From positions 1-36,053 of the IMG/VR virus record IMGVR_UViG_3300025417_000004: a stretch of DNA of 36,053 nucleotides; one strand, 5' to 3'. Position 1 is the stretch's first letter; the number at the start of each line of letters is the position of its first letter. This DNA comes from a virus. Positions 2,650 to 36,053 of this stretch are shown piece by piece. The notes under the pieces were generated by a model. It did not search any database. It had not been told where the DNA came from and was given only the letters and a program-made list of their open reading frames with translations. The position numbers and the translations under genes are program-made.

Positions 2650-2871
2650 ATGAATGATGTTGAACAATACACAGCATTAAATGAATTAAACCGTCAGGTG
2701 CAAGAGGCTTATGAACTAGGCTGCGAAGATGGTAAAAGTTTTGAAAAGGGACGTATTTTAGACCTTTTGCACGATTGCATTGATGACACACCTACTACTC
2801 CAGGTTCTATGAAAGATCATTGGAATGGAACTATTAAAGCAATGAAGAAAAGAATTATGGAGAGCACATGA
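2650..2871 (+). CDS. Small hypothetical protein between exonuclease and RecT-like genes
   Basis: This 73-aa, largely helical and charged protein has no motif I recognise. It begins MNDVEQYTALNELNRQVQEA and ends with a basic helix (KAMKKRIMEST). ATAAGGGGATAAAA precedes the ATG, the extended ribosome site of this phage. An ATGA overlap joins it to the annealing-protein gene. Its position suggests an accessory role in recombination, but nothing in the sequence demonstrates one. Confidence 0.75.
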   Translation: MNDVEQYTALNELNRQVQEAYELGCEDGKSFEKGRILDLLHDCIDDTPTTPGSMKDHWNGTIKAMKKRIMEST

Positions 2872-3716
2872 GCAATATCGTACCTTTTGCAGATATGCAA
2901 CAGATGGCCAAGGCCATTGCAGATAGCCGACTATTCGGCCTAACAGACATTAATCAGGTGTTAGCACTTGGCATGGTCGCACAGGCTGAAGGACACGCAT
3001 TCGCCACCGCGGCGAGGGATTATCACGTTATTCAAGGCCGTCCTGCGCTCAAAGCTGATGCAATGATGGCTAGATTTCAAGCCGCTGGCGGTAAAGTTAA
3101 CTGGGAGGTGTATACAGATGAACGTGTCACAGGGACTTTTAGCCATCCGAATGGTGGAACTCTTAGTGTCACTTGGACTATTGAACAAGCGAGATCGATT
3201 GGTCTTGTTAAACCAGGCAGTGGGTGGCAAAAATTTCCACGAGCTATGCTCAGATCACGCTGCATTAGCGAAGGCATTCGATCAGTTTACCCAGGCTCTG
3301 TTACCGGATTCTACTCGCCCGAAGAAGTCCAAGACTTTGAACCCGTAAAAACACGCGATATGGGGCGTATTCAGCCTGAACCTATACCAACTATCACGCA
3401 GGATGGTGAAGTCGTGCTAGGGGACGTTTTAGACGCTCCTGAAGCCAATTATGGTGATGTTGCGCCACCTGAGTTGCCGCTCTATGTGCCAGGCACCGAT
3501 AAACCGCACCAATACGTCTATGACAATGAAGACTTTATTCGTGAATTCGGTAATTTGTGCGACAGAATCGGGAAATCGAAAAAACTTGATGCGGGGGAGA
3601 GGTTTGAGAAATGTAAGGCTCTCGCCCGTGCCAATCAAGATTTTATTGACAAGATGACTGAAATCCAGAAAACCGTACTTAACCGCATGATCGCAACCGC
3701 AGGAGAAACACAATGA
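2868..3716 (+). CDS. RecT-like single-strand annealing protein
   Basis: This 282-aa protein resembles a phage family commonly labelled recombinase RecT. The conserved-looking core is YHVIQGRPALKADAMMARF at about residues 53-71, followed by WQKFPRAMLRSRCISEGIR and a segment ending VTGFYSPEEV. Such proteins coat the 3' strand left by the exonuclease and promote annealing. The C-terminal third is charged and helical and may contact partners. ATGA overlaps at both ends link it to the preceding small gene and the SSB-like gene. The assignment rests on recalled family patterns plus the neighbourhood. Confidence 0.75.
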   Translation: MSNIVPFADMQQMAKAIADSRLFGLTDINQVLALGMVAQAEGHAFATAARDYHVIQGRPALKADAMMARFQAAGGKVNWEVYTDERVTGTFSHPNGGTLSVTWTIEQARSIGLVKPGSGWQKFPRAMLRSRCISEGIRSVYPGSVTGFYSPEEVQDFEPVKTRDMGRIQPEPIPTITQDGEVVLGDVLDAPEANYGDVAPPELPLYVPGTDKPHQYVYDNEDFIREFGNLCDRIGKSKKLDAGERFEKCKALARANQDFIDKMTEIQKTVLNRMIATAGETQ

Positions 3717-4416: not shown

Positions 4417-5163
4417 ATGTCTAGTCCTAAAATACTCATCGCCACCCCTATGTACGGTGGCCAGTGCGCGGGTTTCTACACGCAGTCGCTGCTCAACCTT
4501 CCTGCAACACTTAAGGAGGCTGGCATCGAGTCGATGTTTACGTTTATGTTTAATGAATCGCTCATTACTCGCGCGCGTAACGCTCTGGCTAACGCTTTCC
4601 TGAAGTCAGACTGCACGCACCTTATGTTTATTGATTCTGATATTGGTTTTAATCCTGCTGACATTGTTAAGATGGTTCAGGCCGATAAGAACGTGATCGG
4701 TGGTATCTATCCCAAGAAAGAGATCAACTGGAACACGGTCAAACGTGCAATGGATAACGGTATTGCCAACGATATGCTGAAACACCACACCGGATCGTTT
4801 GTGGTGAACCTGGTAGGTTATGCAGCCGAAGTCACCGTACCAGTCGATCAGCCTGTTGAAATTATGAACGCAGGTACGGGTTACTTGCTCATTAAACGTG
4901 AAGTGTTCGAAGCGCTAGAGCCTCATGTACCGCATTATTTCAATGACGTGCACGATCTAGGCAACACCATGCAGGCCCGTGACAAGATTCATGAATACTT
5001 TGCGACTTCGATTGAAGAAGAAACAGGCCGCCTATTGTCTGAGGACTATCATTTTTGCGCGATTTATCGCAAGATTGGTGGTCAAATCTGGGCAGCACCT
5101 TGGGCTGTTCTCACCCACGTTGGCACCTACGCCTTTGAGGGAAGGTTGATCCCCGCACCATGA
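4417..5163 (+). CDS. Glycosyltransferase-like protein (GT-A fold)
   Basis: This 248-aa protein begins KILIATPMYGG. It carries NESLITRARNALANAFL at 46-62, then THLMFIDSDIGF with the DxD-type motif at Asp73-Asp75, as in GT-A enzymes that bind a nucleotide sugar through a metal. GGIYPKK at 95-101 fits the same fold. The substrate cannot be read from sequence. It might modify a host surface glycan, a virion protein or DNA. It is separated by 21 bases from rusA and overlaps the following methyltransferase as ATGA, so the two probably work together. Confidence 0.75.
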   Translation: MSSPKILIATPMYGGQCAGFYTQSLLNLPATLKEAGIESMFTFMFNESLITRARNALANAFLKSDCTHLMFIDSDIGFNPADIVKMVQADKNVIGGIYPKKEINWNTVKRAMDNGIANDMLKHHTGSFVVNLVGYAAEVTVPVDQPVEIMNAGTGYLLIKREVFEALEPHVPHYFNDVHDLGNTMQARDKIHEYFATSIEEETGRLLSEDYHFCAIYRKIGGQIWAAPWAVLTHVGTYAFEGRLIPAP

Positions 5164-5732
5164 CAAACTTCACACAAGACTGGTTTACACACAACGTGGT
5201 GAACTTTAAAGCTATAAAAAATAGGTTGCCAGAATGCAATAGCATCTTAGAGATAGGATGTTTTGAAGGCAGGGCAACCTGTTGGATGCTTGAGAATATG
5301 CTATCGCCTAACGGTCAAATTATTGTTGTAGACACGTTTAAAGGCTCGGAAGAGCACACAAACGTTAAGCTAGACAATATGTATGAGATTTGGCAAGCTA
5401 ACGTTGATGAAGTCAAGCTCTCAGGCCAACACGTTTTCCCCTACATAGGTACAAGCTACGAAATGCTTGCTCAACTTATTGCAGAAGAGTCTAAGTTTGA
5501 TTTCATTTACGTCGATGGCAGCCACACCGCCTATGACGTAATGACAGACGCTTGCATGGCTTGGGGATTACTCAAGAAGGGAGGCATCATGCTGTTTGAT
5601 GATTACCTGTGGGCTGATATGCCAGGGCTGCTACACCGCCCTAAACTTGGCATTGATTATTTCACAACAATCTTCTCAGAGCAGAACAAGTTAGTTTTAT
5701 TGGGTTACCAACTAGGATTGCGTAAACTCTAA
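5160..5732 (+). CDS. Class I SAM-dependent methyltransferase (Methyltransf_24-like)
   Basis: This 190-aa Rossmann-fold methyltransferase shows motif I ILEIGCFEGRAT (29-40), the acidic end of strand beta2 VVDTFKG (56-62), the beta4 region FDFIYVDGSHTAYDV (113-127) and FDDYLW (146-151). The IYVDGSH and DDY elements are typical of PF13578-type enzymes, often found beside glycosyltransferases. It lacks the NPPY or PCQ motifs of DNA methyltransferases, so a sugar or small-molecule target is more likely. It is the last gene of the rightward unit, and its TAA overlaps the end of the convergent gene. Confidence 0.8.
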   Translation: MTNFTQDWFTHNVVNFKAIKNRLPECNSILEIGCFEGRATCWMLENMLSPNGQIIVVDTFKGSEEHTNVKLDNMYEIWQANVDEVKLSGQHVFPYIGTSYEMLAQLIAEESKFDFIYVDGSHTAYDVMTDACMAWGLLKKGGIMLFDDYLWADMPGLLHRPKLGIDYFTTIFSEQNKLVLLGYQLGLRKL

Positions 5733-34255: not shown

Positions 34256-34558
34256 ATGAATATTTATGATTATATTTTTATCTTTTACGCCGTCCTGGCG
34301 GTTATTGGCTTTGGTGCGTTGTGTGTGAGGTGGTACAAGCGCACACATATAGAAGAAAAATCCCCCGCGCGCGTGTTGCAAGGTGAGGTGTATGCCGATG
34401 ACTTGGGGATTGAGGCCGCCGTTGAACCTCGCCCACGGTTTGGATTGCTTGATCCAGATTGGAAGTATGTCAAAAGTGAAGCTACCGATATTCGGAAGAC
34501 TTTCAGAGAACACCGCGCCCAAGTGTTAGCCCAGACCCAAAGGGGGAATCGTGAATGA
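34256..34558 (+). CDS. Membrane-anchored hypothetical protein (100 aa)
   Basis: The N-terminus (MNIYDYIFIFYAVLAVIGFGALCVRW) is a single membrane span followed by a charged cytoplasmic tail rich in Arg, Glu and Pro, ending REHRAQVLAQTQRGNRE. AAGGATGAATAAAC precedes the ATG. Its TGA overlaps the starts of both following frames: GTG at 34551 and ATG at 34555. It lies immediately upstream of the methyltransferase locus and may be co-transcribed with it. Confidence 0.72.
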   Translation: MNIYDYIFIFYAVLAVIGFGALCVRWYKRTHIEEKSPARVLQGEVYADDLGIEAAVEPRPRFGLLDPDWKYVKSEATDIRKTFREHRAQVLAQTQRGNRE

Positions 34559-35618
34559 GTTGGCTCTTTTCGCAGGCGCTGGTGGAGGAATACTTGGGGG
34601 ACACTTGCTTGGATGGCGAACAGTCTGTGCAGTCGAGTGGGAACCCTACCCAGCAAGCGTATTGTGCGCCAGACAAAATGACAAAATTCTCCCGCCTTTC
34701 CCGATTTGGGATGATGTTCAGACCTTTGACGGAAACCCGTGGCGAGGAATTGTTGACGTTGTATCTGGCGGATTTCCATGCCAGGACATTAGCGCAGCAG
34801 GAAAAGGTGCAGGAATTACAGGCAGCCGATCCTCAATGTGGAAACACATGGCGCGCATCATTGGCGAAGTACGACCACAGTACGTCTATGTGGAAAACAG
34901 CCCAATGCTCGTTACTAGAGGACTCGATGTCGTTCTCGCTGACCTTGCCGCGCTGGGGTTTGATGCAAGATGGGGCGTTGTATCCGCAGCAGACGTTGGT
35001 GCAAACCATAAGCGTGAAAGAATTTGGATCAGAGCCAAACAACGACACTTTCTTTCATACACCATGCAGCACGGGGATGGATGGAGGCAGCAACAGTCGG
35101 AAAGCACTCAAGAAACGTCTGGAATGGGCAACTCCAAACACTTTGGAAGGATTAGCACCCAAGAAGTTAGATCGAATTATGGAGTACAACAACAAGTCTC
35201 GCCCAGGTCGCAGTTATGCGTCAATGAACCTACGGGAGCAGGTTGTGTACGGCAAGATACCGATATGGCCGACACCTCAAGCACGGGATCACAAGGGGAG
35301 CAGCGGCAGGAGCAACACGGGTCAAGAGCTGGATTTGCCAACGAAAGTCAAGTTGTGGCCTACACCTGCAACACGGGATTACAAGGGTGCAAATTCATTC
35401 AAAACGACTCAAGAGAAGCTGCTTCAAGGCAAACAAGCACATACGGGGCAATTACCCAATGCGATAATGATGGAGAAAAAAGAAGACATTGGTGGGACGT
35501 TGAACCCAACGTGGGTAGAGTGGCTAATGGGGTGGCCGCTAGGGTGGACAGACTTAAAGCCATTGGAAATGGACAAGTACCAGAAGTGGCAAGAACAGCA
35601 TGGGGTTTGCTTAAATAA
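34551..35618 (+). CDS. C5-cytosine DNA methyltransferase (Dcm-type)
   Basis: This 355-aa protein starts at a GTG with AGGGGGAATC upstream. Motif I is LALFAGAGGGILGG (4-17). Motif IV with the catalytic Cys77 is SGGFPCQDIS. Motif VI ENSPML (115-120) is the variant common in phage enzymes. Motif VIII is RERIWI (155-160). After a variable target-recognition region rich in Gln, Ser and Thr (about 165-310), the C-terminal motifs IX/X are WDVEPNVGRVANGVAARVDRLKAIGNGQVP. It should methylate cytosine at C5, probably to protect phage DNA or alter host expression. Nearly the whole gene is also open in the +1 frame (next entry). Confidence 0.9.
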   Translation: MNELALFAGAGGGILGGHLLGWRTVCAVEWEPYPASVLCARQNDKILPPFPIWDDVQTFDGNPWRGIVDVVSGGFPCQDISAAGKGAGITGSRSSMWKHMARIIGEVRPQYVYVENSPMLVTRGLDVVLADLAALGFDARWGVVSAADVGANHKRERIWIRAKQRHFLSYTMQHGDGWRQQQSESTQETSGMGNSKHFGRISTQEVRSNYGVQQQVSPRSQLCVNEPTGAGCVRQDTDMADTSSTGSQGEQRQEQHGSRAGFANESQVVAYTCNTGLQGCKFIQNDSREAASRQTSTYGAITQCDNDGEKRRHWWDVEPNVGRVANGVAARVDRLKAIGNGQVPEVARTAWGLLK

Positions 35619-35628
35619 AAACCTATGA
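34555..35628 (+). CDS. Overlapping +1-frame protein inside the DNA methyltransferase gene (357 aa)
   Basis: This ATG-initiated frame is open for 357 codons on the same strand and overlaps the methyltransferase by more than 1 kb. Its ATG forms an ATGA overlap with the preceding gene, the usual gene junction of this phage. The product is not random-looking. It has LADFHARTLAQQEKVQ (71-86), TSMWKTAQCSLLEDS (110-124), two WPTP-type repeats (WPTPQARDHKG 238-248, WPTPATRDYKG 268-278) and a C-terminal motif LNPTWVEWLMGWPLGWTDLKP (316-336). I recall proteins with these strings in phage and bacterial databases. Whether it is translated or is a shadow of methyltransferase conservation is unresolved. 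Confidence 0.5.
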   Translation: MSWLFSQALVEEYLGDTCLDGEQSVQSSGNPTQQAYCAPDKMTKFSRLSRFGMMFRPLTETRGEELLTLYLADFHARTLAQQEKVQELQAADPQCGNTWRASLAKYDHSTSMWKTAQCSLLEDSMSFSLTLPRWGLMQDGALYPQQTLVQTISVKEFGSEPNNDTFFHTPCSTGMDGGSNSRKALKKRLEWATPNTLEGLAPKKLDRIMEYNNKSRPGRSYASMNLREQVVYGKIPIWPTPQARDHKGSSGRSNTGQELDLPTKVKLWPTPATRDYKGANSFKTTQEKLLQGKQAHTGQLPNAIMMEKKEDIGGTLNPTWVEWLMGWPLGWTDLKPLEMDKYQKWQEQHGVCLNKNL

Positions 35629-35954: not shown

Positions 35955-36053
35955 TGGGGTAGGGGGGTTTTCGGGAAGAGATAGGGCAGTACATGGGTAT
36001 TTAATTTTAACTAGGGGATAGATATGAACAAGATTGATTTAATTATTGATGCG
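35955..36053. repeat. Terminal direct repeat, right copy (circular join)
   Basis: Identical to bases 1-99. Reading through the join, the rightward unit continues from the methyltransferase locus into the duplicated small genes. The final 30 bases are the start of the gene at 70, not a third paralogue. Confidence 0.93.

Follow-up and report, generated by a model that had tools for sequence, protein, structure and literature searches.

Two overlapping reading frames in a phage genome as probable subunits of one split C5-cytosine DNA methyltransferase

Why should the C5-methyltransferase gene of a phage be open, almost from end to end, in a second reading frame on the same strand, and what might that second frame be for? 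The window (the whole stretch of viral DNA analysed here, 36,053 nucleotides of IMG/VR record IMGVR_UViG_3300025417_000004) carries such a pair: gene A, with a GTG start, and gene B, in the +1 frame, with an ATG start, sharing 1,064 nt (34555-35618). An initial annotation, made from the letters alone, had described the pair, and its account of the DNA is accurate. Both ORFs exist with the ends and lengths that are listed in Table 1; the bases encoding A's PCQ also encode FHARTLAQQEK in B; ADTSSTGSQG in one frame lies over WPTPQARDHKG in the other; the WPTP motif is duplicated (at B residues 238 and 268, with weaker copies, FHTP at 167 and WATP at 191); and the ATGA at 34555-34558 is the start of B overlapping the stop of an upstream 100-aa ORF. 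No PHROG match was found for this upstream ORF, and its translational coupling to B is inferred.

The window appears to be a complete genome that closes into a circle, because its two ends (1-99 and 35955-36053) are an identical 99 bases and two other contigs (L001 and L002) run across the junction. Another methyltransferase-like ORF (5160-5732; PHROG_2675, 3.7e-13) sits downstream of RecE-like and RecT-like recombination genes (1740-2639 and 2868-3716). Four large ORFs (851, 509, 462 and 345 aa) follow one another on the minus strand at 8386-14904, the strand of the structural genes, with no PHROG match for any of them. A search for structured RNA downstream of A and B yielded a fold z-score of 0.2 and no Rfam family at the gathering score.

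Table 1. Features of the A/B locus, in window coordinates
Feature	Coordinates	Strand	Basis or remark
Upstream ORF, 100 aa, function unknown	34256..34558	+	TGA overlaps B's ATG (ATGA)
Shine-Dalgarno-like AAGGGGGA	34540..34547	+	Upstream of A's GTG by 3 nt and of B's ATG by 7 nt
Gene A, C5-methyltransferase catalytic chain, 355 aa, GTG start; motifs I-VIII and X	34551..35618	+	PF00145 9e-30; PHROG_363 1.4e-66
A codons 1-165, motifs I-VIII (FAGAGGG, PCQ, ENS, RERIWI)	34551..35045	+	hhalign; both frames constrained
A codons 166-310, stop-free linker	35046..35480	+	No amino-acid constraint in frame A
A residues 331-344 RVDRLKAIGNGQVP, motif X, frame A	35541..35582	+	E 2e-9 to motif X of single-chain Gordonia relatives
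Gene B, overprinted chain, +1 frame, 357 aa, ATG start; TRD-position region and motif IX	34555..35628	+	PHROG_1008 6e-37; frame kept in relatives; purifying selection
B residues 166-308, presumed target-recognition domain (TRD), xxTP repeats	35050..35478	+	Only frame B constrained
xxTP repeats of B	FHTP 35053, WATP 35125, WPTP 35266, WPTP 35356
B residues 314-333 GTLNPTWVEWLMGWPLGWTD, motif IX, frame B	35494..35553	+	E 6e-7; both frames constrained

One Shine-Dalgarno sequence is proposed to serve both starts, a function that is inferred; a purine-rich stretch occupies the equivalent place in relatives. B starts with ATG in all 63 distinct loci that have the 4-nt offset. The start of A in the same loci is ATG, GTG or TTG, and four have no start at that codon; the three of these with TTA have an in-frame ATG just upstream (by eye).

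Could the +1 frame be open by chance? When A was shuffled 20,000 times with its protein and codon usage preserved, the +1 frame acquired a mean of 8.2 interior stops and was never free of them, the probability of no +1 stop being 0.0046 for codons 1-165 and 0.0029 for the remaining codons. The initial annotation's estimate of well below one in a million was slightly too strong, the shuffles giving about 1e-5 for this gene alone; the refutation that it had itself envisaged, a simulation of this kind readily generating equally long open +1 frames, did not come about. Relatives are more telling. A scan of viral contigs with B as the query yielded at least 598 encoding stretches, and genome contigs hold 169; nearly all of the 80 loci kept have both frames open over the full length, despite varying length. 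B served as query for several of the locus sets, and a further viral scan was made with A only, so that B played no part in selection. The +1 frame is not broken there either: in 79 of the 80 loci selected by A no stop interrupts it (codon 0 and the gene end excluded), with two stops observed in all against 431 expected (one against 284 in codons 1-164, one against 147 beyond codon 164). These loci are partly shared with the B-selected set and are related to each other, and do not represent 80 independent events. In a control set of 30 ordinary C5-methyltransferases, found in genomes with PF00145, +1 stops occur at 1.03 times expectation and no gene has an open +1 frame. Finally, among 229 genomes from the taxonomic class to which G001 belongs (the Pseudomonas genome with locus L099), all nine PHROG_1008 matches overlie a PHROG_363 match on the same strand at +1 (offsets of 1 modulo 3, calculated by hand from the match coordinates).

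Copies with single interruptions do occur. L225 has one stop within B (1934-1936), its A being intact, and L034, L110 and L143 each have one stop within the catalytic part of A, with B intact; whether these are decayed copies or sequencing errors is unresolved. Contig L002 (2997-4074, corresponding to window 34551-35628) differs from the window at only 4 bases in 7.1 kb; three of the four fall in A and each creates a TAG stop in A (window 35298, 35307 and 35602), two of them silent in B and the third altering B G350. Selection against an active enzyme, or a population or assembly artefact, might be responsible; the stops remain unexplained.

In a +1 overlap the third codon position of A is the second of B, so that changes that are silent in A nearly always alter B. 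The third base at A's four-fold sites still agrees in 61-86% of comparisons within codons 2-165 and in 94% within codons 311-340; identity at B's four-fold sites in 166-310 is 37-40%, which is an internal measure of saturation. Substitutions in 140 close pairs were classed by a two-letter code, the first letter for A and the second for B (S, silent; N, altering), and the classes were set against expectation; the pairs are not independent, so that the ratios are meaningful and the counts are not. Codons 2-165 are constrained in both frames (A NS/SS 0.04, B SN/SS 0.24). In codons 166-310 constraint is confined to B (A NN/SN 1.0, B NN/NS 0.07), and 90% of the substitutions there change A yet leave B silent. 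Both frames are again constrained in codons 311-340, and only A in codons 341-355. One caveat applies to B residues 93-145, the consensus of which partly echoes A (VEN becoming WKT, GFDARWG becoming GLMRxG), so that likeness to distant relatives in that region is poor evidence of B function; constraint at A-silent sites is good evidence of it. Purifying selection on the +1 frame, which the initial annotation had suggested looking for in relatives, is thus present in substitution classes and at four-fold sites, and its inference that the second frame is used gains support from openness and selection together, in the absence of expression data. The overlap of A and B is real and far beyond chance, and B is maintained by selection.

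What the two frames encode is best seen from the anatomy of the C5-methyltransferases. A aligns to the canonical enzymes (hhalign, E 5e-24) only as far as its residue 168, and the part of A that makes it a member of PF00145, motifs I-VIII with the catalytic PCQ and ENS (Pfam 9e-30), is the part that B residues 1-164 overlie. The AlphaFold2 model of A is weak overall (mean pLDDT 48): residues 100-170 reach 71-90, and residues 170-302 are predicted with pLDDT below 50 and hardly any secondary structure. The rest of the PF00145 pattern, motif IX and then motif X, is satisfied only by both chains jointly, with IX in B and X in A. B itself has no Pfam or NCBIfam family; the PHROG family that it matches, PHROG_1008, is labelled DNA methyltransferase. 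Direct hhalign comparison of B alone with canonical methyltransferases was not significant, a PDB profile search with B gave nothing credible, neither sequence nor PDB searches matched B to a known TRD, and its AlphaFold2 model, from a 55-sequence alignment, is poor (mean pLDDT 48). The assignment of motifs IX and X was made by way of single-chain Gordonia relatives, which align these motifs in register with the canonical enzymes (E 1e-4) and have PTP repeats at the TRD position. After its xxTP repeats B continues with LNPTWVEWLMGWPLGWTD, which aligns to motif IX of the single-chain relatives (E 6e-7); motif IX of B, given as LNPTWVEWLMGWP, lies downstream of a hypervariable region. Mean identity of B among relatives is 0.70 in residues 1-92, 0.59 in 93-165 and 0.62 in 166-189, falls to 0.18 in 190-308 and is 0.77 in 309-340; pairs that are more than 85% identical in B 1-165 may drop to 9-26% in 190-308. 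In L003, the closest of the divergent relatives, an unmatched stretch (window 35367-35489) is flanked by segments that match the window at 94% and 93%. Residues 190-308 are accordingly hypervariable and cassette-swapped, behaving as a TRD would, which is what they are presumed to be.

Relatives arrange the same parts in other ways. L288-L293, which are related to Gordonia phage Geodirt, have motifs I-VIII, PTP repeats, IX and X one after another in a single frame of 504-718 codons, and their C-terminal part is 48-78% identical to Geodirt's frame-B ORF. Geodirt and mycobacteriophage Refuge have TRD, IX and X in a separate ORF; in Refuge the halves are annotated as two genes, both named DNA methyltransferase, with an overlap of 101 nt. 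In L094, L112 and L159 (Spirochaetia, Paraburkholderia and Kiritimatiellae contigs) A stops shortly past motif VIII and motif X is in frame B; in L108 and L128, too, A is interrupted by a stop beyond motif VIII, and B is intact. Judged from sequence, then, the parts come in three layouts: all on a single chain; divided into I-VIII and TRD-IX-X; or, as in the window, divided into I-VIII plus X and TRD-IX. Frame-B ORFs carrying motif X had no Pfam match, and a viral scan with frame B of L094 returned one relative, of the ordinary type. The search that the initial annotation had recommended, for homologues of the +1 product without A in another frame, found none; it found single-chain and barely overlapping split homologues instead. 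Only the frame-B half of Geodirt is annotated (gp4, DNA methyltransferase; L086, NC_055776, 1134-2352), its motif I-VIII ORF being unannotated; ABMM1 (L084) is the reverse, with A alone annotated. The A/B pair is found both in phages and in genome contigs of bacteria from several phyla, with the proviso that some of the bacterial and archaeal contigs come from metagenome bins and could hold phage or misbinned DNA.

Very probably, then, A and B are subunits that together make up a single C5-cytosine DNA methyltransferase, each encoded in one of the two overlapping frames. The observations underlying this conclusion are the dual coding, the selection map, the distribution of motifs and the existence of single-chain and split relatives. 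The single-chain relatives to which motif IX of B aligns are also those to which A's motif X aligns, and the selection map matches the anatomy of the enzyme. Of the roles previously offered for B (methyltransferase partner, regulator, anti-defence protein), that of partner fits, B having the motif IX and the TRD-position region that A lacks. A would supply SAM binding and catalysis (I-VIII and X), its centre being a mere stop-free linker, and B the target-recognition region and motif IX. Separate translation is inferred, ribosomes on the one Shine-Dalgarno sequence presumably starting either at the GTG of A or at the ATG 4 nt further on, and so is the assembly of the two chains into a working enzyme. 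Such assembly in trans is established for M.AquI, M.EcoHK31I and the artificially cut M.SssI and M.HhaI (PMC3404938). As to origin, a single-chain enzyme may have had its TRD-IX segment shifted to +1 by a frameshift ahead of it, with a second frameshift between IX and X in the lineage of the window; B's own N-terminal part would have arisen later by overprinting. Methylation, its specificity and a biological role are likewise inferred; shielding phage DNA from host restriction would be a reasonable role, though an untested one. Expression, interaction and methylation data are lacking and the target sequence cannot be read from sequence data; the stops in A of L002 and a few others are points against the split reading.

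The kind of enzyme is already known. M.EcoHK31I (YGGCCR; Lee, Kam and Shaw 1995) has motifs I-VIII and X on a large chain, on which its TRD is also predicted, and IX on a second polypeptide, both being needed (PMC3404938). A and B divide I-VIII plus X and IX in the same way. The small chain of M.EcoHK31I, of about 176 aa, is said to be read from an alternative frame inside the large gene, and B too is encoded in another frame within A; unlike that small chain, B has 357 aa, starts 4 nt after A and runs the whole length of A. Unlike M.EcoHK31I, moreover, the window has its TRD-like region in B, with A 166-310 unconstrained and predicted to be disordered, and this difference in TRD placement makes A/B a variant layout rather than the same one. 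In M.AquI (alpha/beta; CYCGRG; Karreman and de Waard 1990) the second chain carries part of the variable region and IX (PMC3404938). The M.AquI layout, with X and IX on the same small chain, is that of Geodirt, Refuge, L094, L112 and L159; the window differs in keeping X on A and in the almost complete overlap of its genes. An out-of-frame protein hidden in a phage methylase gene is also known from ShiLan (PMC11855218), but there it is an HNH homing endonuclease encoded by a mobile insertion, whereas B is a part of the enzyme that spans the whole gene.

Other explanations must be weighed against the split enzyme. The DNA presents the parts in their conventional order, and programmed frameshifting, with ribosomes leaving A for B past motif VIII and returning to A past IX, would make of them one chain with I-VIII, TRD, IX and X; a single shift would suffice in L094, L112 and L159. 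We consider this unlikely: frameshifting has no need of B codons 1-160, yet these are stop-free (1 stop against 284 expected), show constraint where changes are silent in A (B SN/SS 0.24) and open with an ATG that does not vary. The window would also take two shifts in opposite directions, and no common slippery site was seen at the ends of A in the early-stopping relatives (by eye, not systematically). It is a little less likely still that A has a recognition domain of its own and that B adds motif IX only, the arrangement stated for M.EcoHK31I in its published description (PMC3404938). Codons 166-310 of A lack the amino-acid constraint that B has, A's centre is predicted to be disordered, and the PTP repeats that mark the TRD position in single-chain relatives occur here only in frame B; TRDs can diverge fast, and low conservation of A would not by itself exclude this explanation, but strong constraint on B over the same bases argues against it. 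That B is a separate protein (a regulator, or an anti-restriction or anti-defence protein) that merely happens to share the gene seems highly improbable to us: no function of B has been tested and phage early regions often carry such genes, but B supplies exactly the motif that A is missing, shows homology to single-chain methyltransferases over their C-terminal half and was never found without A. An untranslated +1 frame, open by chance or as an echo of A, merits next to no credence and is already refuted by comparative data, for although the motifs of A leave almost no choice at some B residues (WKT, GLMRxG) and the single-gene probability of about 1e-5 is not zero, stops are all but missing from 80 loci (2 against 431 expected), canonical methyltransferases stand at expectation, and B is specifically constrained where A is not.

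If A and B are indeed subunits of one enzyme, several oddities are explained: PHROG_363 and PHROG_1008, to which A and B respectively belong and which are separately listed as DNA methyltransferase families, both bear that label, and Pfam coverage is limited to the first half of A. Where a single gene is annotated, as in Geodirt and ABMM1, cloning "the" methyltransferase should yield an inactive half. M.EcoHK31I and M.AquI being known, what is new is the apparent position of the TRD in the overprinted frame, the near-complete overlap with only 4 nt between the two starts, and how broad the family is; our literature search found no paper describing an overlap of the A/B type in phages. The median +1 overlap in viral reference genomes is 14 nt (PMC8903798), against which 1,064 nt marks a very long, and widespread, same-strand overprinted pair, and a natural test bed for a domain that moves to another reading frame and still functions in trans. 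We lean, with less assurance than for the split itself, towards a phage-wide family of two-frame enzymes in which the overprinted frame alone holds the specificity domain, this domain being swapped between phages as a cassette, some 130-150 residues of A being no more than the shadow of the other frame. If that is true, phages would switch methylation specificity by swapping one frame, leaving catalysis undisturbed, and many annotated "DNA methyltransferases" would be half enzymes.
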